A DNA stretch of 64,000 bases from Klenkia marina (lineage in GTDB: Bacteria > Actinomycetota > Actinomycetes > Mycobacteriales > Geodermatophilaceae), in assembly GCF_900101025.1 (NCBI RefSeq), contig NZ_FMUH01000008.1:1-64000 (forward strand). Direction: 5' to 3'. Below the pieces are notes generated by a model. The model made no database searches. It was not told the origin of the DNA and saw nothing but the letters and a program-made list of their open reading frames with translations. This document shows positions 44,801 to 64,000 of this stretch, one piece after another (the first letter of the stretch is position 1; each line of letters begins with the position of its first letter). A program made the position numbers and the translations under genes.

Positions 44801-45985
44801 TCAGACCAGCAGCTCACCGTCGCGGACGACGACGCGGCCGCCGGCCAGGACCACCTCGCGGCGGGGCGCGCGCACCAGGGCGTCGGGCACGTTCTCCGCG
44901 TCGAGGAGCACCACGTCGGCCCGGGCTCCGGGCACCAACCCGTGCACGTCGCGGTGCACGAAGCGGGCCCCGCCGACCGACGCCGCCTCGACCGCGGCGG
45001 TGAGGTCGCCGTCGGTGCGCAGGCCGTGCAGGCGGGCGAAGTCCAGCGCCACCCGCAGGAGGTCGCCGTCGCCGAACGGGGACCACAGGTCGCGGATGCC
45101 GTCGGTGCCCAGCCCGAGCCCGACCCTCCGCTGCCGCATGCCCGCCCACGGCAGCGGGGCCGACCGCACCGGGGCGACCGTCGTCCAGGCGACGTCGAGC
45201 TCGGCCAGCTCGTCGAGCAGCCGCTCCTGCCGGGCCGGCGGCAGCTCGCCCAGCGCGAAGCCGTGCGACACCGTCACCCGACCCTGCAGACCGTGCCGGC
45301 GCACCCGCTCGAGCACCAGGTCGTAGGTGAACCCGCCGAGCTCGCCGCCGTCGTGCACGTGCAGGTCGAGCCCGCACCCGTGCCGCTCGGCGATCGCGCA
45401 CAGGCCGTCGAGCTGGGCCACGGGGTCGCGGTCGATCGAGCACGGGTCCAGCCCGCCGACGGACGCCGCCCCGGCCGCGGCTGCGGCGTCCAGCAGGTCG
45501 AGCACCCCGGGCCGGCGCACCACGCCGTCCTGCGGGAAGGCCACGACCTCGACCTCGACGGCGCCGTCCAGCGCGGCCGCGGCCTCCCGGACGACGTCCA
45601 GACCGCGCAGCCCCACCCCGAGGTCGACGTCGACGTGGCTGCGCACCGCGGTGGTGCCGTGCCGCAGCAGCTCACGCAGCACCCGCACCGTCGCCTCGAC
45701 CGACGGGATGCCCAGGGCGTCGCGCTCGGCGCGCTCGTGGGCGATGCGGCCCTGCGTGGTCTGCTCGCCGCCGTAGGGCTGCCACGGCCTGCCCCACCAG
45801 CTCTTGTCGACGTGGGCGTGCGCGTTGACCAACCCCGGCAGCGCCAGCAGACCGCGGCCCTCGACCCGCCGGGCCGCCGTGCCGGAGCCGGCCGGGACGA
45901 CGTCGGCGATGCGGTCGCCGTCCACCAGCAGGTCCACGGGGTCGTCGCCCCACGGCCGGACGTCGGCCAGCAGCAGCGGGGTCAC
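44801..45985 (-). CDS. amidohydrolase, cytosine-deaminase/AtzC-like
   Basis: A 394-residue metal-dependent hydrolase of the amidohydrolase superfamily. Metal ligands are visible as HAHVDK (HxH), His in LHVHDGG, His in VSHGFALG and Asp in GTDGIRD, the single-metal layout of cytosine deaminase and N-isopropylammelide hydrolase. It could deaminate or hydrolyse a heterocyclic amine. It starts at GTG 45985 and overlaps the stop of the upstream DsbA-like gene as GTGA. Confidence 0.85.
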   Translation of the reverse strand: MTPLLLADVRPWGDDPVDLLVDGDRIADVVPAGSGTAARRVEGRGLLALPGLVNAHAHVDKSWWGRPWQPYGGEQTTQGRIAHERAERDALGIPSVEATVRVLRELLRHGTTAVRSHVDVDLGVGLRGLDVVREAAAALDGAVEVEVVAFPQDGVVRRPGVLDLLDAAAAAGAASVGGLDPCSIDRDPVAQLDGLCAIAERHGCGLDLHVHDGGELGGFTYDLVLERVRRHGLQGRVTVSHGFALGELPPARQERLLDELAELDVAWTTVAPVRSAPLPWAGMRQRRVGLGLGTDGIRDLWSPFGDGDLLRVALDFARLHGLRTDGDLTAAVEAASVGGARFVHRDVHGLVPGARADVVLLDAENVPDALVRAPRREVVLAGGRVVVRDGELLV

Positions 45986-49624: not shown

Positions 49625-50968
49625 TCAGCCGCGCAGGTGGGCCTGTGACTGCTGGGCGGTGCTGACCAGGGCCTGGTCCGGGCGGATGCGGGTGACCTCG
49701 ACCGACTGCGCCGGCAGCAGGGCGGCGAGCAGCCAGTCGGTGCCCACCCGCACCCGGTTGGCCATCGAGGGCAGCGCGTACAGGTGGTAGCCGCGCGCGA
49801 CCAGCTTGGCCAGCGGGCCGCTCAGCCGGATGCCCAGGGGCTTGGCGATGGCGTCGCGGCCGCCGAGGTCGGCGACCAGGCCGAGGTCGTGGTGGCGGTA
49901 GTCCTTCGCCGTCCCGTGGCCCAGGCTGGCGGCCACGTTGCGGCCCAGCGCGGTGCCCTGGCGCTGGGCGTGCTGGGCGGTCGGCGGCGTCAGCGGCGTG
50001 CCCTCCTGCGTGAGGTCGGGGACGGCGGCGGCGTCACCCCCGGCGAAGACGCCCTCGGCGCCGGGCACCGAGAGGTCGGGCCGGACGACGAGACGCCCCT
50101 TCTGCAGCGGCAGGTCGAGCGTCTGCACCAGCGGGCTGGCCGCGACACCCGCACCCCAGACCAGCGTGCGGCTGGGGATGGTCGAGCCGTCGGTCAGCTC
50201 GGTCTCGCCCTCGCGGGCCTCCTTCACCGTCACGCCGAGCCGGACGTCGATGCCCCGCCGCTTCAGCGCACCCAGCGCCTTCTCCCCCAGCTCCGGGCCG
50301 AGCTCGGGCAGCACGCTCTCGGCCAGGTCGATGAGCACCCAGCGGATGTCCTCGGGCCGCACGGTCGACCAGCGGGCGGCGATGGTGCCCAGCCAGTACT
50401 GCAGCTGGGCGACGATCTCCGTGCCGGTGTAGCCCGCGCCCACCGCGACGACGGTCATGCGGGCCCGGCGCTCGGCGTCGTGCTCGGGGCCGGCCGGCAA
50501 GGCGTCGGCGCGGTCGAGCTGGCGCAGCAGGTGGTCGCGCAGGAACTGCGCCTCGACCAGCGTCTTCACCCCGTGTGCGCGCTCGGCCACCCCGGGGATG
50601 TCGAACTGCCGGGTGATGGAGCCGGGCACCAGCACCAGGCGGTCGTAGGCCAGGGTGACGACCTGCTCGGTGGCGCCGCCGTCGTCCGTCGTCCGCACGG
50701 TGACCGTCCGGGCCGCGTGGTCGACGTCGGTGGCGCTGCCCAGCACGACCCGGGTGCGGCGCAGCCGCTGCCGCAGGCTGACCGCGATGTGCCGGGGCTC
50801 GACGACGCCGGCGCTGACGTCGGGCAGCAGCGGGCTGTAGAGCAGGTAGTCGCTGGGGTTGACCAGCACGAGCTCGGCGGCGTCGGCCGGCAGCAGCTTC
50901 TCCAGCGTGCGCAGGGCGTGGAACCCGGCGAACCCGCCACCGACGACGACGATCCTGGGGCGGCTCAT
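49625..50968 (-). CDS. NAD(P)/FAD-dependent oxidoreductase, NDH-2-like
   Basis: A 447-residue flavoprotein with VVGGGFAGFHALR at the N-terminus for FAD, a second nucleotide motif VAVGAGYTGTEIVAQ near residue 165, and AGGDAAAVPDL closing the FAD site. The Tyr-Thr form of the second motif distinguishes it from the first NDH-2 at 41025. The C-terminus has a weaker membrane-binding segment (YHLYALPSMANRVRVGTDWLLAALLP). Probable NADH:quinone oxidoreductase. AAGGAG precedes ATG 50968 with good spacing. Confidence 0.88.
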   Translation of the reverse strand: MSRPRIVVVGGGFAGFHALRTLEKLLPADAAELVLVNPSDYLLYSPLLPDVSAGVVEPRHIAVSLRQRLRRTRVVLGSATDVDHAARTVTVRTTDDGGATEQVVTLAYDRLVLVPGSITRQFDIPGVAERAHGVKTLVEAQFLRDHLLRQLDRADALPAGPEHDAERRARMTVVAVGAGYTGTEIVAQLQYWLGTIAARWSTVRPEDIRWVLIDLAESVLPELGPELGEKALGALKRRGIDVRLGVTVKEAREGETELTDGSTIPSRTLVWGAGVAASPLVQTLDLPLQKGRLVVRPDLSVPGAEGVFAGGDAAAVPDLTQEGTPLTPPTAQHAQRQGTALGRNVAASLGHGTAKDYRHHDLGLVADLGGRDAIAKPLGIRLSGPLAKLVARGYHLYALPSMANRVRVGTDWLLAALLPAQSVEVTRIRPDQALVSTAQQSQAHLRG

Positions 50969-50987
50969 GGGGTTCTCCTTCGCGAGC

Positions 50988-51021
50988 GGGTGCGGGGCAA
51001 CTGATGACCTGCCCCGCACCC
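50988..51021 (-). terminator. terminator after the aldo/keto reductase gene
   Basis: GGGTGCGGGGCA (50988-50999) pairs with TGCCCCGCACCC (51010-51021): 12 bp perfect, loop of ten. It lies between the aldo/keto reductase stop (51046) and the start of the next minus-strand gene (50968), separating two otherwise tandem genes. Confidence 0.7.
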
Positions 51022-51045
51022 ACCGGTGCGAACCCGTCTCGTGGG

Positions 51046-52083
<1,038 letters not shown>

Positions 52084-52270
52084 GGCCACGATCCTGCCTG
52101 CCGGCCTCGGCCCACGCAGGCGGGGCAGGCGTCCAGCTCGTCCGCGCCGCGGTGGGTGGTGCGCGCAGCCGCGATCGACGTGGTCACGGCTCGACCATGC
52201 CGCCGGACGACGACCCTCCGGCAGCCGTCGACGGGTCCCTGACGCCCACCCGGCTCCTCCGTGACGCCCG

Positions 52271-52340: not shown

Positions 52341-53972
52341 TCAGAGGTCGAGCAGGCGGAGCTGGACCATCGCGGCGAAGCGGACGTCGGGGTCGCCCAG
52401 GTCGAGGCCGCCCACCTCGGCGACCCGGCGCAGGCGGTAGCGGAACGTGTTGGGGTGCACGTAGACCGCCGCCGCGGCCGCCGGCACGTCGCCGAAGGCG
52501 TCCAGCCAGGCCCGCAGCGTCGGCACCAGCTGCGCCCCGTGCGCGGCGTCGTACTCCCCGAGCCGGGCCACCGGCCCGGCCGGGCGGTCACCGCGGGCCT
52601 CGGCCAGGTCGTGCAGCTCGAGCAGCAGCCCCTCGACGTGCACGTCGTCGGACCGGGCCACCCGCACCGCACCCCCGCGCACCCGGAGCACCCGCAGCGC
52701 CCGGTCGGCGGCCACCCGGGCGGCGGCGAGGCCCGCGACGTCGCGGCCGGGTGGACCGATGCCCACGACGGCGGGGATGCGCGGGCCGACCCGGTCGAGG
52801 AAGTCGGTGGCGATCCGCACCGCCCGGGTGTCGGCGTCGGCGTCCTCGCCGGTGACCGGCACCAGGCCGTAGACGGCGTGCCCGACCAGGGCCGTGGCCG
52901 ACCGGGGGTGGACGGCGGACAGGTGCACCCCGAACGCGTCGGCCAGCCGCTGCCGGTCGTTGGCCGACCCGGCGTCACCGGCGACGTCCACCCCGTCGAC
53001 GGGGTCGAGCGCGGCCAGGGCCAGCACCACCACCGAGCGGTCGGCCAGCCCGAGCCGGTGCAGCGCCTCACGGGCGCCGCTGCCGCCCTCCAGCGCCGTG
53101 GACACCAGGTCGGCCTGCAGCCGGCGCTGCACGTCGGCACCGGCGCGCAGCCGCAGCATGTGCAGCGCGACCAGGGTGGCGGCCTCGCCCAGGGCGCGGG
53201 CGCGGTCGGGGCTGAGCCCGTCGCGCAGCACCGCCCAGATCGAGCCGAGCACCTCGTCGCCGGCCCGCACCGCGATGGCCGCGCGGGGCAGGGCGCCGGC
53301 GCCGTCCCGGGGGCTCACCGGGTCGACCAGCACCGGCCCGGTGGAGCGGTACAGCTCGCGGAACACCCCGCGCTCGGTGAGCACCCGCGAGTACACCTCG
53401 GGCACCTGCAGGCCCAGCACGGTCTCGATGCGCCCGCGGTCGGCCTCGTCCTGCCGGCCGGAGAACGCGAGCACGCGGTTGCTCCGGTCCTCGATGGTGA
53501 TGGGCGCGTCGACCAGGGCGGCCACGGCGTTGGCCAGGGCGAAGAGGTCACCCGAGGGCAGCCCGCCCAGCGACTCGGCGGTCTGCGCGCCGACGTCGCC
53601 CTCGGCCAGCAGCACCCGCAGCATGGCCGCCAGCTGCGCCCAGGTGGCCCCACGGGTCAGCCCGAGCAGCGCCACCCCGGACTCCCGCGCCGCGGCCAGC
53701 ACCGCCGGGGTCACCGTCACCGGGGCGCGCAGCACCAGCCCCGCAGCGCCCCGCCGGCCCAGCTGGGTGAGCAGGGTGATGGTGGCGGCGGCGCCCCCCA
53801 CCCCCACGCCGAGCACCAGTGCCGCCGGCGGCAGCTCGGGCTCGTCGATGGGGTCGTGGATGGCGACCCCGCCCAGCCGCGGGACGGCGTCCGGGTCGCC
53901 GTGCAGCAGGTCCAGCAACGTCGTGCCCAGGTCGTCGAGCACCCGGCGCAGCCCGGCGGGCGCTCCCATCAC
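52341..53972 (-). CDS. PucR-family transcriptional regulator
   Basis: A 543-residue regulator. The N-terminal third is a PucR-type ligand domain (PPAALVLGVGVGG, then GLVLRAP and GVALLGLTRGATWAQL), the middle is GAF-like, and the C-terminus is the PucR helix-turn-helix with VYVHPNTFRYRLRRV, matching the HTH_30 family. PucR proteins usually control purine, amino-acid or nitrogen-compound use. It starts at a leaderless GTG and follows the racemase stop by 27 nt, so it is the natural candidate regulator of the peptide/D-amino-acid operon. Confidence 0.87.
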   Translation of the reverse strand: MMGAPAGLRRVLDDLGTTLLDLLHGDPDAVPRLGGVAIHDPIDEPELPPAALVLGVGVGGAAATITLLTQLGRRGAAGLVLRAPVTVTPAVLAAARESGVALLGLTRGATWAQLAAMLRVLLAEGDVGAQTAESLGGLPSGDLFALANAVAALVDAPITIEDRSNRVLAFSGRQDEADRGRIETVLGLQVPEVYSRVLTERGVFRELYRSTGPVLVDPVSPRDGAGALPRAAIAVRAGDEVLGSIWAVLRDGLSPDRARALGEAATLVALHMLRLRAGADVQRRLQADLVSTALEGGSGAREALHRLGLADRSVVVLALAALDPVDGVDVAGDAGSANDRQRLADAFGVHLSAVHPRSATALVGHAVYGLVPVTGEDADADTRAVRIATDFLDRVGPRIPAVVGIGPPGRDVAGLAAARVAADRALRVLRVRGGAVRVARSDDVHVEGLLLELHDLAEARGDRPAGPVARLGEYDAAHGAQLVPTLRAWLDAFGDVPAAAAAVYVHPNTFRYRLRRVAEVGGLDLGDPDVRFAAMVQLRLLDL

Positions 53973-53985
53973 CGGGTCGACGTTA
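53970..53985 (-). promoter_or_regulatory. leaderless promoter of the PucR gene
   Basis: On the minus strand TAACGT (53985-53980), seven nt, then GTG 53972 immediately followed by ATG. This gives the regulator its own transcript, separate from the operon whose last gene ends at 54000. Confidence 0.55.
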
Positions 53986-53999
53986 GTGATCCGTCCGGT

Positions 54000-55121
54000 T
54001 CACAGGGGCAACCACTCGCGCCAGGTGGTCACCTCCTCGAGCACCTCGGGCACCGGGACGACGCCCGTGCCCGGCCCGGTGGGGACGCCGAGGTGGCCCT
54101 CGGCCAGCACGAACGGCTCGGTGAGGTCGGTGCGGTAGTACCGGTCGGACGCCGAGGTGTCCCCGGGCAGCGTGAACCCGGGCAGCGCCGCCAGCGCGAC
54201 GTTGGCCGCCCGGCCGATCCCGGTCTCCAGCATGCCGCCGCACCACACCGGTACGCCGTGCGCGGCGCAGACGTCGTGGATCCGGCGGGCCTCCAGGTAC
54301 CCGCCCACCCGGCCGGGCTTCACGTTCACGATCGAGCAGGCGCCCAGCGTGATCGCCTCGGCGGCCGCCCGGGCCGAGGTGATCGACTCGTCCAGGCACA
54401 CCGGGGTGGCGATCTGCCGGGCCAGCGCGGCGTGCCCGAGCACGTCGTCCTCGGGCAGCGGCTGCTCGACCAGCAGCAGGTCGAAGGGGTCCAGCCGGGC
54501 CAGGTGCCGGGCGTCGGCGAGGGTGTAGGCGGTGTTGGCGTCCACCTGCAGCAGCACGTCGTCGCCGAAGCGCTCGCGCACCGCACGCACCGGCTCGACG
54601 TCCCACCCGGGCTCGATCTTGAGCTTGATCCGCACGTAGCCCTGGTCGAGGTACTCCCCCACCGCACCCAGCAGCGCCGGCACCGAGTCCATGATCCCGA
54701 CCGACACCCCGCAGGGGACCCGGTCGTGCACCGCGCCGAGGTGCCGGGCCAGCGGCGTGCCGCTGGCCCGCAGCTCGGCGTCGAGCACGGCGAGCTCCAG
54801 GGCCGCCTTGGCCATCCGGTGCCCGTGCACCGGGGCCAGCACCTGCGCCACCGACGCGGCGTCGACGCGGCCGGCCGCGGCCAGCCGGGGCACCAGGAAG
54901 CGGCGCAGCACGTCGACCGCGCCGTCGACGTACTCCTCGGAGTACAGCGGGTCGGCCATCGCCACGCACTCGCCCCACCCCTCGGCGGCGCCGGTGACCA
55001 CCCGCACCAGCAGCACGTCGCGGTGGGTCTGGGTGCCGAACGAGGTGCGGAACGGGGCGACGAGGGGCAACCCCACCCGCCGCAGCTCGATCCCCTCGAC
55101 CGGTGCGTCGATCAGCTCCAC
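54000..55121 (-). CDS. N-acylamino-acid racemase / o-succinylbenzoate synthase-like enolase
   Basis: A 373-residue member of the MenC/NSAR branch of the enolase superfamily. Catalytic Lys pair in RIKLKIEPGW, metal ligands Asp in QVDANTAYT, Glu in LLVEQPLPEDD and Asp in CLDESITS, second catalytic Lys in VNVKPGRVGG. NSAR enzymes racemise N-acyl amino acids; OSBS enzymes make menaquinone precursor. Neighbouring acyltransferase and M20 hydrolase, and the lack of men genes, favour NSAR. GTG 55121 with GGAGAGG upstream; it overlaps the acyltransferase end by 10 nt. Confidence 0.85.
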   Translation of the reverse strand: MELIDAPVEGIELRRVGLPLVAPFRTSFGTQTHRDVLLVRVVTGAAEGWGECVAMADPLYSEEYVDGAVDVLRRFLVPRLAAAGRVDAASVAQVLAPVHGHRMAKAALELAVLDAELRASGTPLARHLGAVHDRVPCGVSVGIMDSVPALLGAVGEYLDQGYVRIKLKIEPGWDVEPVRAVRERFGDDVLLQVDANTAYTLADARHLARLDPFDLLLVEQPLPEDDVLGHAALARQIATPVCLDESITSARAAAEAITLGACSIVNVKPGRVGGYLEARRIHDVCAAHGVPVWCGGMLETGIGRAANVALAALPGFTLPGDTSASDRYYRTDLTEPFVLAEGHLGVPTGPGTGVVPVPEVLEEVTTWREWLPL

Positions 55122-55993
55122 GATGTCCTCTCCCCTGGTGCGTCGGTGGTCGTGCGCCGGTGCAGCACGTACCGCCCGGCGCGGTCGAACCCGGTGATGC
55201 GCCCGCCCTCGGCCAGCACCGGGTGCAGCACCGACCGGACGGCGGTGCGCCACTGCCCCGCGAGCCCCGGGTCGTCCCGGCGCAGCGCCTCGACGTCGCG
55301 GGGGACGGCCACCAGCAGCACCGGTCCGTCGGTGCGCCCGGGCACCGGGGCACCGTCGGGCGAGCAGGCCAGCGCCACGACCGCACCGGACGGGACGGCG
55401 GTCCCCGGGGCCTCGCCGCGGCAGGCCGCGACGACCTGCGGCGCCGCGAGGTCCCAGCGCACCAGCAGGCGGTCGGTCTCGTCGGCGCCGTTGAGCGCGT
55501 CGCGCATGCCGCCGTAGTGGTCGGGCAGGTAGGCCACTGCGGCGGCGCCGAGCTTGCCGGTGTTGAACCAGGCGTTGCGGGCGACCAGGGGGTCGTAGGT
55601 CCAGGTGATCGTGCCGACGCCGCGGGCCAGCGCCCAGGCGCGCTGGTGCACCTTCATCGCGAAGCCGACGTTGCGGCCGCGCACCGCCCCGGAGACCCCG
55701 GCGATGTGGCTGTGCAACGACCCGGCCGCCGGCTCGGCGAAGAACCCCACGCACGCGCCCACGAGGTCGGGCCCGTCGTAGGCGCCGGCCACGTAGCTGC
55801 CGGCGGTGGCGAGCGCACGCAGCAGCTCGGTGCTCAGCGGCGGGCTGTCCGCCCGCTGCCAGATCGCGCCGAGCAGCCCGGACACCGCGGCGAGGTCGGG
55901 CACGGAGGTGACGGCGCGCACCTGCACGCCGGCCGCCCGGCCCGTGGCCTCGGCGGAGAGCACCGCGTCGTCCACCGGCGTCGGCGCGCTCAC
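55112..55993 (-). CDS. COG3375-like GNAT acyltransferase (putative amino-acid N-acyltransferase)
   Basis: A 293-residue protein with a GNAT fold in the first 190 residues. The stretch VGTITWTYDPLVARNAWFNT, then KLGA, YLPDHYGGMRDALN and DRLLVRW, matches the COG3375 predicted acyltransferase pattern. In the N-succinylamino-acid route known from Geobacillus, such an enzyme acylates D-amino acids before racemisation. GTG 55993 overlaps the upstream M20 stop as GTGA, and its own end overlaps the racemase start, so all three are coupled. The acyl donor (succinyl- or acetyl-CoA) is not shown by sequence. Confidence 0.83.
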   Translation of the reverse strand: MSAPTPVDDAVLSAEATGRAAGVQVRAVTSVPDLAAVSGLLGAIWQRADSPPLSTELLRALATAGSYVAGAYDGPDLVGACVGFFAEPAAGSLHSHIAGVSGAVRGRNVGFAMKVHQRAWALARGVGTITWTYDPLVARNAWFNTGKLGAAAVAYLPDHYGGMRDALNGADETDRLLVRWDLAAPQVVAACRGEAPGTAVPSGAVVALACSPDGAPVPGRTDGPVLLVAVPRDVEALRRDDPGLAGQWRTAVRSVLHPVLAEGGRITGFDRAGRYVLHRRTTTDAPGERTSWS

Positions 55994-57090
55994 CGGTCGG
56001 CCCCGTCCCCGGTCAGCAGGTCGACGAGCAACCCGGTCAGCAGCGCCCGGCGCGGGGCCAGCTCGGCGACCAGCACGTGCTCGTCGTCGGCGTGCGCACC
56101 GCCGCCCACCGCGCCCAGCCCGTCGAGGGTGGGCACCCCGACCCCGGCGGTGAAGTTCCCGTCGGAGGCCCCGCCGACCGCCGTACCCCGCAGCTCGGGC
56201 AGGCCCAGCCGGCGGGCGACCCCGGCGGCCCGGTCGAACAGCTCGGCCGCGGTCTCCATCGGGGGCCGGTTGGGCCCGCCGGTGACCTCGACCCGGGCGC
56301 CGGGCAGCACCGGGCGCAGGGCGCGCACCGCGGCGTCGACCCGGTCCTGCTCGGCGGCGTCGGGCACCCGGACGTCGACGGCCACCCACGCCCGCGCCGG
56401 CACGGTGTTGGTGACGGTGCCGGCCGACGACGCGGTCGGGGTGACCGTCGTCCCCCGGTCGGGGTCGCCGAGGGCGGTCAGCGCGAGCACCTGGTGGGCC
56501 AGCTCGACGCCGGCGTTGACGCCGTCGGCGGGTGCGAGCCCGGCGTGCGCGGCCCGGCCGGTGACCTCGACCCGGTACAGCGAGACGCCCTTGCGGGTGG
56601 TCTTGAGGGCACCGCCGTCGGCGGCGGCCTCCAGCACGAGGGCGGCCCGGCAGCCGCGGGCCTCCGCCTCGATCAGCCCGCGCGAGGACGGCGACCCCAG
56701 TTCCTCGTCGCCGGTGACCAGCACGGTCACCCCGGCCGGGTCGGGGAGGGCGGCGACGGCGGCGAACGCCACCGCCAGCCCGGCCTTCATGTCGACGCTG
56801 CCCGGCCCGCGCAGCACCCCGTCGACGACCTCGGACGGGTGGGTGGCCAGCGAACCCATCGGCCAGACGGTGTCGTGGTGGCCCAGCACGAGCACCTCCG
56901 TCGGGCCCTCCCCCAGCCGCCAGCGCAGGTGGGTGCGGCCCTCCAGCACGATGCGCTCGGGTGCGCAGCCCAGCCGGCGCGCGCCCACCCGGGCGACGAC
57001 GTCGGCGCTGCGGGCGACGGCGGCCAGGTCGTCGGACCGCGACTCGCAGCTGACGAGCTCGTGGATGTCGGCGAGCAGCTGATCGGTCAC
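55990..57090 (-). CDS. M20 family metallohydrolase (N-acyl-amino-acid deacylase-like)
   Basis: A 366-residue M20 enzyme of the carboxypeptidase G2/ArgE-like group. Zinc ligands: His in LGHHDTVWP, Asp in GPGSVDMKAG, the Glu-Glu base pair in TGDEELGSPSS and the last His in GGGAHADDEHV. The dimerisation lid is present (GRAAHAGLAP). It has no signal peptide, so it acts in the cytoplasm and would release the free L-amino acid from the N-acyl form. GTG 57090 overlaps the DppF stop as GTGA. Confidence 0.86.
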   Translation of the reverse strand: MTDQLLADIHELVSCESRSDDLAAVARSADVVARVGARRLGCAPERIVLEGRTHLRWRLGEGPTEVLVLGHHDTVWPMGSLATHPSEVVDGVLRGPGSVDMKAGLAVAFAAVAALPDPAGVTVLVTGDEELGSPSSRGLIEAEARGCRAALVLEAAADGGALKTTRKGVSLYRVEVTGRAAHAGLAPADGVNAGVELAHQVLALTALGDPDRGTTVTPTASSAGTVTNTVPARAWVAVDVRVPDAAEQDRVDAAVRALRPVLPGARVEVTGGPNRPPMETAAELFDRAAGVARRLGLPELRGTAVGGASDGNFTAGVGVPTLDGLGAVGGGAHADDEHVLVAELAPRRALLTGLLVDLLTGDGADR

Positions 57091-57830
57091 CGCACACCTG
57101 CCGGGACCGCGGCCAGCAGCTCGCGGGTGTAGTCGTGCGCGGGGTTTCCGAGCACCTGCTCGGCGGGGCCCTGCTCGACGATCCGGCCCTCGCGCATCAC
57201 CGCGATGGTGCTCGCGACGTAGCGCACCACGGCCAGGTTGTGCGAGATGAACAGCATCGAGGTGCCCAGCTCGCGCTGCAGCCGGCGCACCAGGTTCAGC
57301 ACGGTGCCCTGGATCGACACGTCCAGGGCCGAGGTGATCTCGTCGGCCACGACCACCTCGGGCCGGGCGGCCAGGGCCCGGGCCACGGCGACCCGCTGGC
57401 GCTGACCGCCCGACAGCTGCGCCGGGTAGGCCCGCGCCCGGGCGGGGTCCAGGTCCACCAGCTCCAGCAGCCGGACCACCTCGGCCCGCCGCTGTGCCCG
57501 CGGGGTGCCGCGCGGCACGGCCTCGGCGACGCTGTCGCCGATCGTCATCCGCGGGTCCAGCGAGGAGTACGGGTCCTGGAAGACCATCTGCACCGGACGG
57601 CGGCCAGGACGAGTGGGCACCGGGACGCCGTCCAGCAGCACCGCCCCGCCGGTCACCGGGGCCAGCCCGACCGCGGCCTTCGCCAGCGTGGACTTGCCCG
57701 ACCCGGACTCGCCCACCAGTCCGACCACGGCGCCGTCGGGGACGACGAGGCTCACGCCGTCGACCGCGGTGTGGCCGGTGCGGGCGTCGCCGTAGCGCAC
57801 CGTCACGTCGTCGAACACCAGCTCGCTCAC
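57087..57830 (-). CDS. dppF: peptide ABC transporter ATPase, DppF/OppF-like
   Basis: A 247-residue ATPase with Walker A GESGSGKST, signature QLSGGQRQR, Walker B VVVADEITSALD and switch His in FISHNL. Its length is at the short end for DppF, and it lacks the C-terminal Cys cluster of OppD/OppF relatives. GTG 57830 overlaps the upstream fused gene by four nt. It forms the second ATPase with the ATPase half of that fusion. Confidence 0.88.
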   Translation of the reverse strand: MSELVFDDVTVRYGDARTGHTAVDGVSLVVPDGAVVGLVGESGSGKSTLAKAAVGLAPVTGGAVLLDGVPVPTRPGRRPVQMVFQDPYSSLDPRMTIGDSVAEAVPRGTPRAQRRAEVVRLLELVDLDPARARAYPAQLSGGQRQRVAVARALAARPEVVVADEITSALDVSIQGTVLNLVRRLQRELGTSMLFISHNLAVVRYVASTIAVMREGRIVEQGPAEQVLGNPAHDYTRELLAAVPAGVR

Positions 57831-59803
57831 GCGACCTCCTCCCGTGCGGCACCGGCCGCCGCCAGTTCCCCGTCGGCCGCGCCGGCGGCGACCTCGTCGG
57901 CGTGCCAGCAGGCCACCCGTCCGCCGTCCGCGTCGGCGACCAGCGGCGGGTCCTCCGCCCGGCACCGGTCCGACGCCAGCGGGCAGCGGGCGGCGTAGGC
58001 GCACCCCGGCGGCTGCGCCGAGGGGTCGACCGGCCGGCCCGGGATGACCGGCAGTGGCGCGTCGAGGTCGACGGCCATGTCCGGCACGGTGGCCACCAGC
58101 GCCCGGGTGTAGGGGTGCCTGCCCGCGGCGAGCCGGTCGGCGGGCAGGTCCTCCACGATCCGCCCGGCGTACATGACGAGCACGCGGTCGCACACCTCGC
58201 GCACCACGGCCACGTCGTGGCTGATGAGCAGCAGCGCGACGTCGTCGGAGCGGCGGATCGCGGCCAGCAGGTCGAGCACCGAGCGCTGCACGGTGACGTC
58301 GAGGGCGGTGGTGGGCTCGTCGGCGACGATGAGCGCCGGCTCACCCATCAGCCCCATGCCGATCATCGCCCGCTGCCGCATGCCGCCGGAGAACTCGTGC
58401 GGGTACTGCCGGGCGCGGCGCTCGGGCTCGGGCACCCGCACGCTGCGCAGCCGGTCGACCGCCCGGGCGAGCCCGGCCGCGCGGGAGAGGCCCTGGTGCC
58501 GGCGAGCGCCCTCGGCCAGCTGGGAGCCGATCCGGCGGGTGGGGTTCAGCGAGGTCATCGGGTCCTGGAAGACCATCGCGAACCCGGTGCCCAGCAGCCG
58601 GCGGTGCGCCCGCTCGCCGCCGGCCCGCAGGTCGGTGCCCCGGAAGTCCAGCCGCGCGGCGGTGACCTCGCCGGGCGCCTCGACCAGGCGGGCCACGGCC
58701 AGCGCGGTCAGCGACTTGCCCGACCCCGACTCGCCCACGACGCCGACGGCCTCGCCGCGGCCCACCGAGAAGGTGACCCCGCGCACCGGCCGCACCGTGC
58801 CGTGCGCCCCCGGGAACGCCACCGAGAGGTCCTCGACGTCGAGCACGGGCTGCTCGGCTCCCGGGCCCCGCTCGGTCACCGGCTGCTCGTCGGCCCCGGT
58901 GGTGCGGCGGCGGCGCACCGGGCCCGTCGCCGAGGTGAGCCCGATGCCCTTGGCCACCGCCTCGCCGAACAGGTTGAACGCCAGCCCGGCGACGACGATC
59001 GCCAGGCCGGGGGCCAGCGCAGCCTCGGGGTGCCGGTAGATGCCCGACAGGCCGTCCTGCAGCAGCCGGCCCCAGTCGTAGTCCGGCGCCTGCACGCCCA
59101 GCCCCAGGAACGACAGGCCGGCGAAGGCCAGCAGGGCGCCGCCGGCCCCGATGGTGGCGTTGACGACCAGCGGCTCGGCGATGTTGGGCAGCACGTGGCG
59201 CAGCAGCACCCGGAACCGGCCGACCCCGGCCACCCGGGCGGCGAGCACGTAGTCGCGCGAGGCCACGCCCGCGGCCAGGGTCGACGTGAGCCGGGCGAAC
59301 ACCGGCGCCCCGGCCACGCCGATCGCGAGCACCGCGCCGGTGGCGCCGACGCCGAACACGATGGCGAAGAACAGGGCCAGCAGCAGGCCGGGGAAGGCCA
59401 CCGCGATGTCGATGCCCGCGGTGACCAGCCGGCCGGCGCGGCGGCCCAGGAGCAGCGGGGCCGCACCCAGCAGCATGCCGAGCACGACGGTGAGCAGGGT
59501 GGCGGTCAGGGCCAGCCGCACCGAGAGGCCGGTGGCCACCATCGTGCGGGCGAACAGGTCGCGGCCGAGGTTGTCGGTGCCCACGAGGTGCGCGGCCGAC
59601 GACCCCTGCAGGATCGCGTCGGTGTCCACCGCCTCGGCCTGGTCGCCCCACACGAACGGCGCGACGACGGCCAGCACCAGCACCGCGGCCAGCAGCACGC
59701 CGGCGCCGATGCCCACCGGGGTGCGCAGCACGGAGCCCCACCGGCCCCGTGCGGCCGGGGCGTCGGTGAGGGGGACCAGCGCCCCCGGGGCCACGGTGGT
59801 CAT
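57827..59803 (-). CDS. fused peptide ABC permease (DppC) and ATPase (DppD)
   Basis: One open frame of 658 residues. Residues about 20-310 are a DppC-like permease: six helices and the coupling loop GVGRFRVLLRHVLPN. After a basic linker (RRRRTTGADEQPV), residues about 335-620 are a DppD-like ATPase with Walker A GESGSGKS, signature EFSGGMRQR, Walker B LIVADEPTTALD and switch His in ISHDV. A C-terminal domain has Cys-Ala-Tyr-Ala-Ala-Arg-Cys as in OppD. No stop separates the halves and codon bias is uniform. ATG 59803 overlaps the DppB stop by one nt (TGATG). Confidence 0.88.
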   Translation of the reverse strand: MTTVAPGALVPLTDAPAARGRWGSVLRTPVGIGAGVLLAAVLVLAVVAPFVWGDQAEAVDTDAILQGSSAAHLVGTDNLGRDLFARTMVATGLSVRLALTATLLTVVLGMLLGAAPLLLGRRAGRLVTAGIDIAVAFPGLLLALFFAIVFGVGATGAVLAIGVAGAPVFARLTSTLAAGVASRDYVLAARVAGVGRFRVLLRHVLPNIAEPLVVNATIGAGGALLAFAGLSFLGLGVQAPDYDWGRLLQDGLSGIYRHPEAALAPGLAIVVAGLAFNLFGEAVAKGIGLTSATGPVRRRRTTGADEQPVTERGPGAEQPVLDVEDLSVAFPGAHGTVRPVRGVTFSVGRGEAVGVVGESGSGKSLTALAVARLVEAPGEVTAARLDFRGTDLRAGGERAHRRLLGTGFAMVFQDPMTSLNPTRRIGSQLAEGARRHQGLSRAAGLARAVDRLRSVRVPEPERRARQYPHEFSGGMRQRAMIGMGLMGEPALIVADEPTTALDVTVQRSVLDLLAAIRRSDDVALLLISHDVAVVREVCDRVLVMYAGRIVEDLPADRLAAGRHPYTRALVATVPDMAVDLDAPLPVIPGRPVDPSAQPPGCAYAARCPLASDRCRAEDPPLVADADGGRVACWHADEVAAGAADGELAAAGAAREEVA

Positions 59804-60801
59804 CAGCTCTCCCGGATGACGGAGCGGGGGTCCAGCAGGGACAGGACGACGTCCACGAGCAGGTTCACCAGCAGCACGCCGGCGCCGTAGACGAGCACCA
59901 CCCCCTGCACGACGGGGTAGTCCTTCTCCAGGATCGAGGACACGATGGTCGAGCCCAGGCCCGGCCAGGAGAACACGTTCTCCACCAGCACCGTGCCGGC
60001 CACCAGCGCCGACAGCAGCAGACCGCCCAGGGTGATCGAGGCCGTGAGCGCGTGCGGCAGCGCGTGGCCCAGGTTCACCTGCCAGGCCGGCAGCCGTTTG
60101 GCCCGCGCCGTCCGCACGTGGTCGCTGCGCAGGGCCGTGAGCATCTCCACCCGCACGATGCGGGCCAGGGCCGCGGCCGGGCCGATCGCCAGGGCCAGCA
60201 CCGGCAGCACGTAGGACGGCGGCCCGGTGCGCCCGGCCACCGGCAGCCAGCCCAGGGTGACGCTGAAGACGTAGACGAACCCGACGCCGAGCACGAAGTC
60301 GGGCACCGCGCCGAGCACCGTGCTGGCGGAGGAGAACGCCAGCTCGCCGCCGCGCCGCCGGCCGCCCCGGGTGAGCACGCCCATGCCCGCCCCGATCGGC
60401 ACGGCGAGCGCGACCACCACGAGGAACGCCAGCAGCGCCAGCTCCAGGGTGGCCGGCAGGCGCTGCCCGATGATCCGGGACACCGGCAGCGAGGAGCCGA
60501 GCGAGGACCCCAGGTCGCCGGTCAGCACGCCCTGCAGGTAGTCCAGGTACTGCTCCCACAGCGGCCGGTCCAGCCCCAGGGAGGCCCGCCGGGCCGCGAC
60601 CAGGGAGGCCGGTGCGGTCGGCCCCAGCGCCGCACGCACCGGGTCGCCCGGGATCAGGTGCAGGATCAGGAACGACGCCGTCACCAGCACCCAGAGCGAG
60701 ACCAGCAGCCGGCCGGCGCGGCGCACCGCGAAGGCGAGCCACGGGTTGTCGGCCATCCGCCGGGACGGCGTCCCGGCGGTGGCGGCGGTGGTGGCGGTCA
60801 C
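59803..60801 (-). CDS. dppB: peptide ABC permease, DppB-like
   Basis: A 332-residue permease with six membrane helices and the DppB opening FAVRRAGRLLVSLWVLVTASFLILHLIPGDPVR-type sequence, which is diagnostic. The coupling region reads ARAKRLPAWQVNLGHALPHAL and the C-terminus LLVDVVLSLLDPRS is conserved. GTG 60801 begins four nt after the binding-protein stop; ATG 60756 is an alternative. It pairs with the DppC half of the downstream fusion. Confidence 0.9.
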   Translation of the reverse strand: MTATTAATAGTPSRRMADNPWLAFAVRRAGRLLVSLWVLVTASFLILHLIPGDPVRAALGPTAPASLVAARRASLGLDRPLWEQYLDYLQGVLTGDLGSSLGSSLPVSRIIGQRLPATLELALLAFLVVVALAVPIGAGMGVLTRGGRRRGGELAFSSASTVLGAVPDFVLGVGFVYVFSVTLGWLPVAGRTGPPSYVLPVLALAIGPAAALARIVRVEMLTALRSDHVRTARAKRLPAWQVNLGHALPHALTASITLGGLLLSALVAGTVLVENVFSWPGLGSTIVSSILEKDYPVVQGVVLVYGAGVLLVNLLVDVVLSLLDPRSVIRES

Positions 60802-60805
60802 CGGC

Positions 60806-62377
60806 TCAGCCCTGCATGCGGATGCTGGTGGGGATGAGCCCGTCGCCGACGGCGAACTCCGCGCCCGACCCGAAGAAGGTCGACTCCTGGTTGGCGAAGG
60901 GGAAGACGTCGGCGGAGGAGACGAGCGCGGCCTCGGCCTGCAACCAGGTGTCGCAGCCCGCGGTGCCCTCCATCGCGCTGGCCTGGGCGACGAGCTCGTC
61001 GTACTCGGGGTTGACGATGTGCGCGAAGTTGTTGCCGTCGGGCACCACGGTCCCGGAGACGAAGGGCACCACCTGGTCGGGGCTGCTGACGTTCAGCTGC
61101 ACCCAGGCGGCGTCCCAGTCCCCCGACCCGAACAGCGTGCTGATCGAGGCCGTCTCGTCCTGCGGGGTCACGTCGACGGTCACGCCGAGGTCCTGCCAGG
61201 CCGTGGTCACGAGCTCCGCCGCCGCCGAGCCGCTGGCACCCAGCTCGGTGTCGTAGAGGAACGTGATGGCCAGCGGTGCGCCGCCCTTGGCCCGGGTGCC
61301 GTCGGCGCCGGCGACCCAGCCGGCCGCGTCGAGGGTCGCCGCGGCCGCGTCGGCGTCGAAGGCCGGCAGCGCGTCGGAGACCGAGTCGCCGCCGCAGGCC
61401 GACGGGGCCGAGGCGGCGAAGCTGGTGCCGGGTCCGCCGCGGTCGGCGCTGAGCACCCGGGCGACCTGCTCGAAGTCCACGGCCTGGGTCAGGGCCAGCC
61501 GGACGGCCGGGTCGGACGCCGGGCGACCGGCGGTCTGGTTGTACCACTGCTCACCGAGGACGGCGGTGACGCTGGTGGAGAACAGCCCCGCCGACTCCAG
61601 CCGGTCGAAGTCCGGGCCGATGATCTGCGCGGCGTTCACCTCGCCGGACAGCAGCTGGTTGGCCGCGGTGGTCTCGTTCGGCACGATCTGGAACACCACC
61701 TGGTCCGGCGTGCCCTCGGTGCTGGTGCTCGCGCCGTCCGGGCCCCAGGTGTAGTCCTCGCGCACGGTGTACGTGTAGTGGTCGTTCGGCACGGCCTCGG
61801 TGAGCTGGAAGGGCCCGGTGCCCAGCGTCGAGTCGGTCAGCGAGTCGCGGTCGGCCAGCCCGGCCGAGCAGACCATCGGCACCCCGGCGAGGCCGTTGAG
61901 CACGAACGGCGCCGGCGCGGCCAGCGTCAGGGTGACGGTGCCGTCCTCGGAACCGGTGGCGGTCACCCCGTCGGGCACGAACACCCCGAGGAACGGGCTC
62001 TGGTTGGCCGGGTCGGCGACGTAGTTGATGTTCTCGGCGGCGTCCTCGGCGGTGAAGGGCGTGCCGTCGGAGCAGGTGACGTCGGGGTCCATGGTCAGCG
62101 TGACCGTCGACCCGTCCACCGACCAGTCGGTCGCCATCTGCGACACGACCTCCCCGTCGGCGTCCAGGCCCAGCAGCGAGTCGTAGGCGAAGTGGGTGAT
62201 CTGGAACAGCCCGCTGGCCGCCGAGGCCTGCGGGTCCAGGTTGCCCGGGTCGGCGGCGACCGCGAAGACGAAGGTGCCACCGGAGACGGCGTTCTCCCCG
62301 CCCCCGGAGCCGCCGCCGCAGGCGGCGAGCGCGAGGGCGGTGACGCCGAGTCCGGCGGCGGTGCGGACGTGCCTCAT
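60806..62377 (-). CDS. peptide ABC transporter substrate-binding lipoprotein (SBP family 5)
   Basis: A 523-residue lipoprotein with lipobox LAAC near residue 20 and a Gly/Ser-rich linker. It has the SBP_bac_5 pattern: an N-terminal GNLDPQAS, then a large dipeptide/oligopeptide-binding two-lobe fold (TWGPDGAS, QIVPNETTAANQLLSGEV, VRLALTQAVDFEQV). It should capture peptides or related cargo for the DppB-DppCD-DppF system. It follows the serine hydrolase gene after 34 nt. Confidence 0.9.
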   Translation of the reverse strand: MRHVRTAAGLGVTALALAACGGGSGGGENAVSGGTFVFAVAADPGNLDPQASAASGLFQITHFAYDSLLGLDADGEVVSQMATDWSVDGSTVTLTMDPDVTCSDGTPFTAEDAAENINYVADPANQSPFLGVFVPDGVTATGSEDGTVTLTLAAPAPFVLNGLAGVPMVCSAGLADRDSLTDSTLGTGPFQLTEAVPNDHYTYTVREDYTWGPDGASTSTEGTPDQVVFQIVPNETTAANQLLSGEVNAAQIIGPDFDRLESAGLFSTSVTAVLGEQWYNQTAGRPASDPAVRLALTQAVDFEQVARVLSADRGGPGTSFAASAPSACGGDSVSDALPAFDADAAAATLDAAGWVAGADGTRAKGGAPLAITFLYDTELGASGSAAAELVTTAWQDLGVTVDVTPQDETASISTLFGSGDWDAAWVQLNVSSPDQVVPFVSGTVVPDGNNFAHIVNPEYDELVAQASAMEGTAGCDTWLQAEAALVSSADVFPFANQESTFFGSGAEFAVGDGLIPTSIRMQG

Positions 62378-62411
62378 GCGGGGTCCTCTCGGGGTGGGGT
62401 CGGGGGTGGGT

Positions 62412-63812
62412 TCAGACGCCGGCGCGGCGGACGGCGCGGCCCAGGTGCAGGAAGCGGGCGCGGCCGGAGCCGTCGTCGCCGAGGAACACGTGCGGGATGT
62501 GCAGCCCCATCTGGCCCTGCACCGGGATGAGGGCGTCGGGGCCGTAGCCGACGAGCTCGGTGCGCTCGGGGCCGTCGGTCATGTCGACCAGCGGGTCCTT
62601 CGGGACGATCTGCAGCCAGGTGCGGCCGTCGTCGTCGGCGCTCACCACGAGGTCGTAGACCAGGCTCTCGTAGGTGCCGGTGACCCGGGCGGTGTCCACC
62701 GGCACGGGGTCCGCCGGCGGGGTGGGCAGCGCCCGGGGCTCCAGGCCGGCGAGCTCGCGCAGCACGTGCCCGACCACGTCGGCGTACAGGGCGTAGGGGT
62801 TGCCGCCGTTGGTGAGCAGCGCGACCGCCAGGTCGTGCTCGGGCACCAGGCGCAGGAACGAGGCCTGGCCGATCGTGTTGCCGTCGTGGCCGTGCACGCC
62901 GCCCGGGCCGTCGAAGAGCTCCCAGCCCAGGCCCCAGGCGTCGCCGAGCACCCGCAGCTCCGGCAGCCGCACCTGCGGCTCGCGCATCGCCGCCACGGTG
63001 GCCTCGGCCAGCAGCCGGGTGCCGTCGGGGGCCACCCCGCCGGACAGGTGCAGCCGGCCGAACCCGACCAGGTCGCGGGCCGACATGGCCAGCATCGACC
63101 CGGCCGGGGCGTTGGACCGCACCATCGCCCACACCGGCGCGGGCACCTGGTCGGCGCCGGGCGCGGGGGTCACGTGCCCGACCGCGACGCGGTGCACGAT
63201 CGCCTCGTAGGGGCTGGGCGAGGCCGTGGTCAGGCCCAGCGGGGTGATGAGGTGGTCGGTCAGGCACTGGTCGTAGGGCTTGCCGCGCAGCACCTCGACC
63301 AGGCGACCGAGCACGCAGTAGCCGGCGTTGTTGTAGCTGAACAGCTCGCCGGGGGTGAACAGCTGCTCGACCTCGGCGAGCTCGCCGAGGTAGCGCTCGA
63401 GGGCGTCGTCGCCGCGGCCGGTGTCGGTGAAGACGTCGCCCTCGAAGCCGGCGGTGTGCGCCAGCAGCTGCCGCACGGTGATCGCCGCGGCGGCGGACTC
63501 GTCGCCCAGGCGGAGGTCGGGCAGGTACTGGCGCACGGGCGCATCGAGGTCGACCACGCCCTCGTCGACCAGCTGCATCACCAGGGTCGCCGTCCAGACC
63601 TTGGTGACCGAGCCGATCTGGAACACCGAGTCGGTCGTGGCCTCGACCCCGGTGGCGCGGCTGAGCAGACCCGCGGCGGCCTCGACCACCTCGCCGCCCA
63701 CGGACACCGCCACCGCGGCGGCGGGCACGTCGTGCTCGGCCAGGAGGGCCGGCAGCCGCTCGGCCAGCCAGGCCCCGACCTGCTCCACCGTGGTGCTCGT
63801 CGCGCTCGTCAT
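62412..63812 (-). CDS. serine hydrolase, class C beta-lactamase / D-aminopeptidase-like
   Basis: A 466-residue penicillin-binding-protein-type hydrolase. SxxK motif SVTK at residues 68-71, YxN as YNN at residues 160-162, and the third motif as HDG. The C-terminal 110 residues form a lipocalin-like extension (VTGTYESLVYDLVV) seen in D-amino-acid-specific esterases and peptidases of this family. No signal peptide, so cytoplasmic. As first gene of a peptide/N-acyl amino-acid operon, a D-stereospecific peptidase is the leading idea; beta-lactamase or esterase activity is possible. Confidence 0.85.
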   Translation of the reverse strand: MTSATSTTVEQVGAWLAERLPALLAEHDVPAAAVAVSVGGEVVEAAAGLLSRATGVEATTDSVFQIGSVTKVWTATLVMQLVDEGVVDLDAPVRQYLPDLRLGDESAAAAITVRQLLAHTAGFEGDVFTDTGRGDDALERYLGELAEVEQLFTPGELFSYNNAGYCVLGRLVEVLRGKPYDQCLTDHLITPLGLTTASPSPYEAIVHRVAVGHVTPAPGADQVPAPVWAMVRSNAPAGSMLAMSARDLVGFGRLHLSGGVAPDGTRLLAEATVAAMREPQVRLPELRVLGDAWGLGWELFDGPGGVHGHDGNTIGQASFLRLVPEHDLAVALLTNGGNPYALYADVVGHVLRELAGLEPRALPTPPADPVPVDTARVTGTYESLVYDLVVSADDDGRTWLQIVPKDPLVDMTDGPERTELVGYGPDALIPVQGQMGLHIPHVFLGDDGSGRARFLHLGRAVRRAGV

Positions 63813-63930
63813 GGCGGTGGACGCTAGGGCCGCGGACGCGGCTGCCGTTCGTCCCCGAGGCCGAACAGGGAAGGGCCGGTTCGTCGGGACGGACGAACCG
63901 GTACCCGCACGGCGACGGCACGATCCGGGC
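63812..63930. promoter_or_regulatory. divergent promoter region with 10-bp palindrome
   Basis: CCGGTTCGTC (63876-63885), six nt, GACGAACCGG (63892-63901) is a perfect palindrome midway between the operon and the divergent gene. A half-site CCGTTCGTC lies at 63845-63853. The minus-strand -10 TAGCGT (63826-63821) is eight nt from ATG 63812. On the plus strand CACGAT sits six nt before ATG 63931. One regulator could control both directions. Confidence 0.6.
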
Positions 63931-64000
63931 ATGGCACGCCCGCTGCAGCTCGCCGACCTGGCCGCGTTCGCCCTGCCCGCGGAGCCGGCGATCTCCCCCG
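63931..64000 (+). CDS. 5' end of a probable S9 family peptidase (partial)
   Basis: ATG 63931 opens a frame running off the window edge. The first 23 residues (MARPLQLADLAAFALP, then AEPAISP) match the typical start of S9 prolyl-oligopeptidase/acylaminoacyl-peptidase proteins, where the first propeller blade begins near SPDG. CACGAT lies six nt upstream as a leaderless -10-like box. It is divergent from the peptide/D-amino-acid operon and may share its control. Only 70 nt are visible, so the family call is provisional. Confidence 0.5.
   Translation, partial: MARPLQLADLAAFALPAEPAISP

Follow-up and report, generated by a model that had tools for sequence, protein, structure and literature searches.

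The window analysed here is a stretch of 64,000 nucleotides of Klenkia marina DNA (family Geodermatophilaceae; contig NZ_FMUH01000008.1, positions 1 to 64,000). Its end is occupied by a gene cluster containing an N-acylamino acid racemase, assigned to the N-succinylamino acid racemase/o-succinylbenzoate synthase (NSAR/OSBS) subfamily of enolases, together with genes for a putative peptide importer. Nine genes of the cluster lie on the minus strand between 63812 and 52341. In order, they encode an S12 (beta-lactamase-like) serine hydrolase (62412..63812, 466 aa), a family-5 substrate-binding lipoprotein (SBP; 60806..62377, 523 aa), a DppB/Opp-type permease (59803..60801, 332 aa), a DppC-DppD fusion of permease and ATPase (57827..59803, 658 aa), a DppF-type ATPase (57087..57830, 247 aa), an M20 hydrolase (55990..57090, 366 aa), an acyltransferase (55112..55993, 293 aa), the racemase (54000..55121, 373 aa) and a PucR-type regulator (52341..53969, or 53972, 542 aa). 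Neighbouring genes overlap or are separated by at most 34 nt. The gaps measure 34 nt between S12 and SBP, 4 nt between SBP and DppB, and 27-30 nt, depending on the choice of PucR start, between the racemase and PucR. DppB overlaps DppC-DppD by 1 nt, overlaps of 4 nt connect DppC-DppD with DppF, DppF with M20 and M20 with the acyltransferase, and the acyltransferase overlaps the racemase by 10 nt. The acyltransferase, racemase and M20 genes are thus adjacent and overlapping, an arrangement that recurs in other genomes. The coordinates and domain matches bear out the gene list, positions, strand and spacing proposed in an earlier note on this DNA, and the close packing on one strand supports its proposal of a unit resembling a single transcript. 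The cluster extends further than that note had described. A divergent operon on the plus strand begins at 63931 and continues beyond the window end (63931..64000 within the window), encoding an S9-S12 fusion hydrolase of 1105 aa (G000:C6:63931-67248) followed by a D-aminoacylase-family amidohydrolase of 497 aa (67248-68741). Two palindromic sites (63841..63904), proposed as the operator of PucR, are located between the two operons.

A stretch of 364 residues of the Klenkia enolase (8-371) gives an ungapped alignment with the NSAR/OSBS enzyme of Amycolatopsis (Protein Data Bank (PDB) entry 1SJA; 611.1 bits, E 8e-183). In the Amycolatopsis enzyme K163 and K263 are catalytic, and D189, E214 and D239 are metal ligands. 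The same catalytic residues were found in the Klenkia enolase (K168 and K268 as well as D194, E219 and D244), and R271 corresponds to R266 of Amycolatopsis, a position at which arginine is reportedly linked to NSAR activity. Comparison of 37 aligned racemases revealed that the two lysines and the three acidic ligands are invariant (37/37) and that the arginine is present in 36. The position of F323 is occupied by tyrosine in the Klenkia enolase, as in 27 of the 37 sequences overall. In the review literature on these enzymes, F323 is one of two residues altered in an engineered racemase, the two-lysine mechanism is described for NSAR/OSBS enzymes, the Amycolatopsis racemase is presented as a catalyst, and kcat/Km values of 42,000 and 26,429 M-1 s-1 on N-succinyl-phenylglycine are tabulated for AmyNSAR and AmedNSAR, respectively. 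The alignment and the catalytic residues confirm the NSAR/OSBS-type assignment that had been made from the sequence at first reading.

The acyltransferase, which we take to be COG3375-like, matched no Pfam or NCBIfam model, and a sequence search of the PDB gave a single match (E 0.61). Its AlphaFold2 model, calculated from a 52-sequence alignment, reached a pLDDT confidence score of 94.1. A Foldseek search with this model revealed GNAT acetyltransferases (best E 3.1e-7; 472 chains at E ≤0.001), including PA4866 and YncA, and the template modelling scores by target length ranged from 0.63 to 0.84 among the best 50 matches. By predicted fold, the protein is therefore a GNAT-fold acyltransferase, the GNAT-domain assignment covering it only up to its C-terminal part, and it is this predicted fold that supports the acyltransferase label of the earlier note. 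The M20 hydrolase belongs to a family that includes dipeptidases. It resembles carboxypeptidase G2 (Pfam Peptidase_M20, 87.3 bits; PDB 1cg2, E 1e-32) and carries motifs similar to those of an M20 metal site (GHHDTV, GPGSVDMK, GDEELGS, and GAHADDE). One further M20 match was found in the Klenkia genome, a weak one of 31 bits.

The SBP, two permeases and two ATPases make up the parts of an Opp/Dpp-type ABC importer. The SBP (Pfam SBP_bac_5, 187.6 bits) carries a LAAC lipobox recognised by eye, and DppB matches BPD_transp_1 (116.7 bits). The DppC-DppD fusion combines BPD_transp_1 (residues 106-285), ABC_tran (residues 341-499) and oligo_HPY domains in a single open reading frame, and DppF matches ABC_tran (102.6 bits) as well as oligo_HPY, the latter barely below the cut-off (24.9 against 27.1 bits). 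The NCBIfam matches of the SBP (NikA/CntA/OppA) were all far below cut-off, and its PDB matches were 6lu2, NikA and MppA. The NCBIfam matches of DppB, and those listed for DppF and DppC-DppD, were all below cut-off. The AlphaFold2 model of the SBP (pLDDT 65) was too poor for a test of its cargo and was not used. The S12 hydrolase (Pfam Beta-lactamase, 224.9 bits; PDB matches 7spn, 3wwx, 1sde, and 4y7p) contains the motifs SxxK (SVTK), YxN (YNN) and HxG (HDG), which are common to other S12 enzymes and not specific for D-peptidases. Alternative starts lie at 63932 and 63788, no signal peptide was recognised by eye, and the enzyme is probably cytoplasmic. In the divergent operon, the fusion hydrolase consists of an S9 prolyl-oligopeptidase-like domain (140 bits) and an S12 domain (224 bits). 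The amidohydrolase scores 624 bits against NCBIfam PRK09061 (cut-off 340), and its closest solved structures are N-acyl-D-glutamate deacylase (3gip, E 4e-33) and D-aminoacylase (1m7j, E 1.6e-17), both of them distant. Amidohydrolase relatives with 48-55% identity are encoded in the vicinity of the racemase gene in three Amycolatopsis, in Leucobacter, Blastococcus and Acrocarpospora, and in one metagenome-assembled genome (MAG). No NlpC/P60 domain was found among 11 cluster proteins scanned. The D-amino acid dehydrogenase DadA was not found above cut-off in the Klenkia genome; D-amino acid oxidases were not sought.

A survey of conserved synteny, which had been suggested in the earlier note, was carried out across actinobacteria. 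Of 396 genomes drawn from the phylum, 79 contain a racemase match at E 1e-40 or better; the acyltransferase was present in 18 of 112 Geodermatophilaceae genomes. Neighbourhoods of 140 loci were compared, comprising 60 from sampled genomes (17 picked by acyltransferase, 43 by racemase) and 80 from named organisms, and a neighbour was counted at 100 bits or more; two contigs are duplicates (L116 of L057, L117 of L060). Acyltransferase and racemase lie on the same strand within 4 kb in 116/140 loci, and this pair was found in 100 of the 123 racemase-picked loci (34/43 from sampled genomes and 66/80 from named organisms). In the 80 named loci the racemase is accompanied by M20 in 35, PucR in 33, S12 in 22, a complete Dpp set in 17, S9 in 15 and the amidohydrolase in 8, two of these eight having only about 30% identity. 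The 43 sampled-genome loci outside Geodermatophilaceae contain M20 in 6, PucR in 4, S12 in 3 and S9 in 2. For comparison with background, 48 long named loci (omitting 31 shorter than 20.5 kb and Klenkia itself, 32 of the 80) were set against 40 control windows of 20 kb from 13 genomes other than those of the named loci, with round coordinates chosen by hand rather than at random. The long loci exceeded the controls for the acyltransferase (42 vs. 0), M20 (25 vs. 0), PucR (25 vs. 0), the full Dpp set (14 vs. 0), S12 (15 vs. 1) and S9 (11 vs. 1), whereas the amidohydrolase (5/48 vs. 0/40, Fisher 0.06) was not significant alone; the loci are related by descent, and Fisher values overstate significance.

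Racemase, M20 and a full Dpp set were found together in eight actinobacterial families: Geodermatophilaceae, Pseudonocardiaceae, Microbacteriaceae, Micrococcaceae, Thermomonosporaceae, Streptosporangiaceae, Streptomycetaceae and Nocardioidaceae. The order SBP-DppB-DppCD-DppF-(S9-S12)-M20-acyltransferase-racemase-PucR is whole or nearly whole in Kibdelosporangium, Lentzea, two Microbacterium, Arthrobacter and Actinomadura, and recurs in Planotetraspora (without the S9 part) and in Streptomyces gelaticus (with S9 and S12 separate). In Nocardioides, Leucobacter and two Amycolatopsis the genes are ordered otherwise, and Nonomuraea has the Dpp set but lacks M20. In three Amycolatopsis species the order is amidohydrolase-M20-acyltransferase-racemase, followed in two of them by S12, SBP, Dpp and S9-S12. 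The fusions are conserved as well, DppC-DppD in 24/26 distinct loci and S9-S12 in 15/16 loci with both parts. In part of the Geodermatophilaceae the Dpp set is inverted on the far side of PucR. A Blastococcus MAG (L060/L117) has Dpp genes in the same place that are 36-51% identical to those of Klenkia while its other genes are 59-77% identical, which suggests by sequence comparison that its importer may have been replaced. Around 34 cluster loci, no further gene family occurred in more than four loci and no conserved biosynthetic gene was seen.

The PucR-type regulator (HTH_30, 76.4 bits; GGDEF_2, 33.6 bits) is the only regulator in the cluster. Within the 118-bp region between the two operons, core-pattern and matrix scans placed the stronger of two sites, with the core TTCGTC-N6-GACGAA, at 63880-63897; the weaker one lies 32 bp away, at 63841. 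The extended palindrome pattern matches exactly only here in the Klenkia genome, with one one-mismatch site elsewhere. The same core is present in the same divergent promoter of three other Klenkia and one further member of the family (L056-L059), and four genomes belonging to a different genus of Geodermatophilaceae (L061, L065, L066, and L068) have it in the gap that separates racemase from PucR. It precedes S9 by 35 bp in L062, by 52 bp in L064 and by 151 bp in the Streptomyces locus L120, and precedes the amidohydrolase by 61 bp in the Amycolatopsis locus L129. The core was detected in 18/140 loci (17 distinct) compared to 1/40 controls. In 12 distinct loci it is intergenic at a cluster unit (4 between S12 and S9, 4 between racemase and PucR, 3 before S9 and 1 before the amidohydrolase), and in the five other distinct loci it lies either within genes (L073, L087, and L133) or between genes, though elsewhere than where a cluster unit begins (L096 and L156). 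A further core site in L129 lies within M20, the M20-acyltransferase sites of L129 and L133 both falling in the M20 frame. Sites of at least 27 bits in the matrix scan were found in the cluster only, but those nine sites had trained the matrix; the highest other scores were 20.7 bits, at unrelated sites, and 16.9 bits in the controls, and the weaker sites are only suggestive. As the only regulator in the cluster, PucR is the likely binder of the palindrome in the divergent promoter.

The earlier note had named OSBS activity alone, combined with the lack of another menC gene in the genome, as an observation that would speak against its reading. A separate, dedicated MenC (the OSBS of menaquinone synthesis; 419.6 bits, cut-off 288) was found in the Klenkia genome on C8, directly beside MenD (389.4 bits, cut-off 244.2) and an o-succinylbenzoate-CoA ligase (MenE)-like frame just below cut-off (327.7 against 345 bits). 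On this ground and that of the named genomes below, an OSBS role was rejected as unlikely for the Klenkia racemase and is kept open for other lineages. MenC, tested here as a PRK02901-family match over cut-off, is present in 17/17 Geodermatophilaceae genomes tested. Of the 35 named loci that hold M20 beside the racemase, 23 were picked by hand and their genomes tested. Sixteen of these genomes have MenC, all three Amycolatopsis among them; in six (five Streptomyces as well as Actinomadura geliboluensis) no MenC and no MenD reached the cut-off, and one, Planotetraspora mira, has MenD only; most are drafts, in which absence of MenC or MenD is no proof. Two of the 16, the named Klenkia and Nocardioides genomes, showed MenD as two sub-cut-off pieces on different contigs. 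Because 16 of these genomes have their own MenC and 6 lack both enzymes, an OSBS role of the racemase is not needed in 22/23 and is unlikely there. The NCBIfam MenC model TIGR01928 nevertheless scores the Klenkia racemase at 300.6 bits (cut-off 200.65). This model apparently does not separate OSBS from NSAR, and would label such racemases menC despite the dedicated MenC in Klenkia, a point of caution for annotation.

These observations suggest, with a probability of roughly 0.6, that the locus is a conserved, co-regulated actinobacterial cluster for the catabolism of D-amino-acid-containing peptides or related N-acyl amino acids. From family membership at every step, we infer the substrates, the acyl group and the direction as follows. 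SBP, DppB, DppC-DppD and DppF would import small peptides, from which the S12 hydrolase, the S9-S12 fusion and the D-aminoacylase-family amidohydrolase would free D-amino acids. The GNAT enzyme would mask these as N-acyl-D-amino acids, the NSAR-type enolase would racemise them via a two-lysine 1,1-proton transfer, and the M20 hydrolase would deacylate the L-form, drawing the reaction towards L-amino acids, while PucR would act on the palindrome between the two operons. The route from import to deacylation proposed in the earlier note is partly supported, by the transcript-like unit, the racemase type, the GNAT fold, the synteny and the separate menC; its view ended before the divergent operon. 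The imported residues may stem from peptidoglycan or from non-ribosomal peptides. More tentatively, and at somewhat less than even odds, the racemase of this cluster could be the hub of a PucR-controlled salvage of D-residues rather than an enzyme of menaquinone synthesis, and together with the amidohydrolase it could yield either enantiomer.

Several observations weigh against this interpretation. The SBP and the permease match Nik and Opp models below cut-off, and judged by sequence a nickel-, opine- or N-acyl-type cargo is possible. The best solved match of the S12 hydrolase is 7spn ("IS11"), which bears no D-peptidase label, and S12 peptidase, DD-carboxypeptidase and alkaline D-peptidase rank below it. 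If the amidohydrolase is a true D-aminoacylase, it would reverse the acyltransferase step in an apparent futile cycle. Relatives are known to cleave L-Xaa-D-Xaa dipeptides, and the futile cycle would disappear if the amidohydrolase cleaved such dipeptides or imported N-acyl-D-acids. M20 is absent from 45/80 and the full Dpp set from 63/80 named loci (short contigs counted), so the transport part is a subtype of the cluster and not universal. Under the 100-bit rule a full Dpp set was found in 0/43 sampled-genome loci outside the family, L114 having a sub-threshold set with 33-44% identity. Finally, among 57 other racemase-positive genomes, one of them a Klenkia, 29 have MenC and 47 MenD over cut-off; 19 have MenD and no PRK02901-family MenC, and 9 have neither, one of them with a MenD fragment. 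In those 19 genomes the racemase may be the only OSBS, or may do both jobs. Of 15 MenD-only neighbourhoods among the 19, 12 contain the acyltransferase-racemase pair alone, one the pair with M20 (L078) and two lack the acyltransferase (L097 and L110). A published review likewise gives OSBS as the relevant function of the Amycolatopsis enzyme (PMC4215206). The 22 of 23 named genomes in which the racemase need not serve as OSBS, three Amycolatopsis with their own MenC included, go against that statement, the strain of that work not being among them.

Alternatively, the importer may take up N-acyl amino acids or N-acyl peptides, of which M20, together with the racemase, would deacylate the L-forms and the amidohydrolase the D-forms, with the acyltransferase handling toxic free D-amino acids or acting in detoxification. 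The presence of both M20 and a D-aminoacylase-family deacylase agrees with such a function, the sub-cut-off matches of the SBP are compatible with N-acyl substrates, and the futile cycle of acyltransferase and D-deacylase would be removed. However, the peptidase-type S12 and S9-S12 hydrolases, which belong to the clusters of several families, would be needless for free N-acyl amino acids, and we regard this alternative as rather unlikely. Less probable still is a flow in the reverse or in both directions, in which L-amino acids, once acylated and racemised, would be set free by the amidohydrolase as D-amino acids, or a degradation of peptide antibiotics by the S12 and S9 hydrolases. A racemase combined with a D-acylase yields D-amino acid in vitro according to a review, amidohydrolase relatives lie near the racemase, and in one locus, L132 of Acrocarpospora, no M20 accompanies the amidohydrolase, acyltransferase and racemase in the stretch examined. 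Yet among the 80 named loci M20 accompanies the racemase more often than the amidohydrolase does (35 vs. 8), the importer fits catabolism better, and the 34 cluster loci are surrounded by no conserved biosynthetic gene. It is very improbable that the enolase is the MenC of menaquinone synthesis, lying in a peptide operon by chance, as the TIGR01928 score, the OSBS function given in PMC4215206 and the 19 genomes with MenD alone might be read. The Klenkia MenC adjoins MenD, the whole tested set of Geodermatophilaceae has MenC, and the named genomes are split 16, 6 and 1, only Planotetraspora having MenD alone. Direct epimerisation of imported dipeptides by the enolase, with M20 as a dipeptidase like some others of its family, would parallel what is described for the dpp-ykf region of B. 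subtilis, but it was rejected as highly improbable, as the dipeptide-epimerase models score far below cut-off (63.8 against 500 and 49.6 against 343 bits), the L-Ala-D/L-Glu epimerase 1jpm matches at 117.6 bits compared to 611.1 for the Amycolatopsis racemase, and the adjoining acyltransferase would have no purpose.

Catabolism of D-residue peptides by this cluster would combine two known plans. In Geobacillus kaustophilus, a GNAT acyltransferase, an NSAR and an M20 desuccinylase are said to convert D- to L-amino acids, as reportedly described by Sakai in 2006; the same three kinds of enzyme stand together in Klenkia, the two acyltransferases being likened by their GNAT kind. Unlike the Geobacillus route, the Klenkia cluster adds an importer with a DppCD fusion, the S12 and S9-S12 hydrolases, the D-aminoacylase-family enzyme and PucR. 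PMC7431475 describes the use of the G. kaustophilus racemase with an L-succinylase. In B. subtilis, the murein-peptide region dppB-E/ykfABCD places peptidases and a dipeptide ABC transporter beside an epimerase of the enolase superfamily, as described in two publications (PMC2954226, PMC5808125), and this plan of enolase-superfamily enzyme, peptidases and Dpp transporter is shared by Klenkia. However, YkfB epimerises intact L-Ala-D-Glu, no acyltransferase is named there and the peptidases are of other families, while the Klenkia cluster has neither a YkfB-type epimerase score nor a YkfC-type (NlpC/P60) domain. The three-enzyme inversion itself is already known. What seems new is the joining of both plans in a cluster that also has conserved fusions, a shared palindrome and an enzyme of the D-aminoacylase family. 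Their union was not found by title and abstract among the papers listed, in which subscription journals, which may describe it, are thinly covered.

Well known for its promiscuity, the Amycolatopsis racemase has a disputed natural role, and the cluster offers a specific alternative role in Amycolatopsis, Streptomyces, Lentzea and Arthrobacter hosts, some of them without MenD over cut-off. If the interpretation is correct, it would provide actinobacteria with a route to use the D-amino acids present in cell walls and in peptide antibiotics. For biocatalysis, the cluster also offers a matched racemase and acyltransferase together with candidate L- and D-deacylases.

Some further genes were observed near these loci. 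An aldo-keto reductase (PRK09912, 500 bits) and a pyridine-nucleotide oxidoreductase lie downstream of PucR on the same strand (window positions 49625-52089). Among L056-L115 this order is kept only in Klenkia loci (L056 and L057, with the second gene alone in L058), and the two genes are probably outside the system. Another amidohydrolase lies outside the cluster at 44801-45985 on the minus strand, its PRK05985 score (409.4 bits) being barely above the cut-off of 408. Labelled by eye, another prolyl oligopeptidase was noticed in L148, L168 and L169, and a class A beta-lactamase-like protein in L125, L129 and L133. The surroundings of the acyltransferase-racemase pair vary among 61 acyltransferase loci without M20. 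Three of these loci (L085, L177, and L193) contain a hydrolase that looks DapE-like by eye, and a conserved SerA-like gene (phosphoglycerate dehydrogenase, by eye) lies beside the pair, likewise without M20, in L083, L084, L087, L088, L090, L095, L179, L181 and L183.

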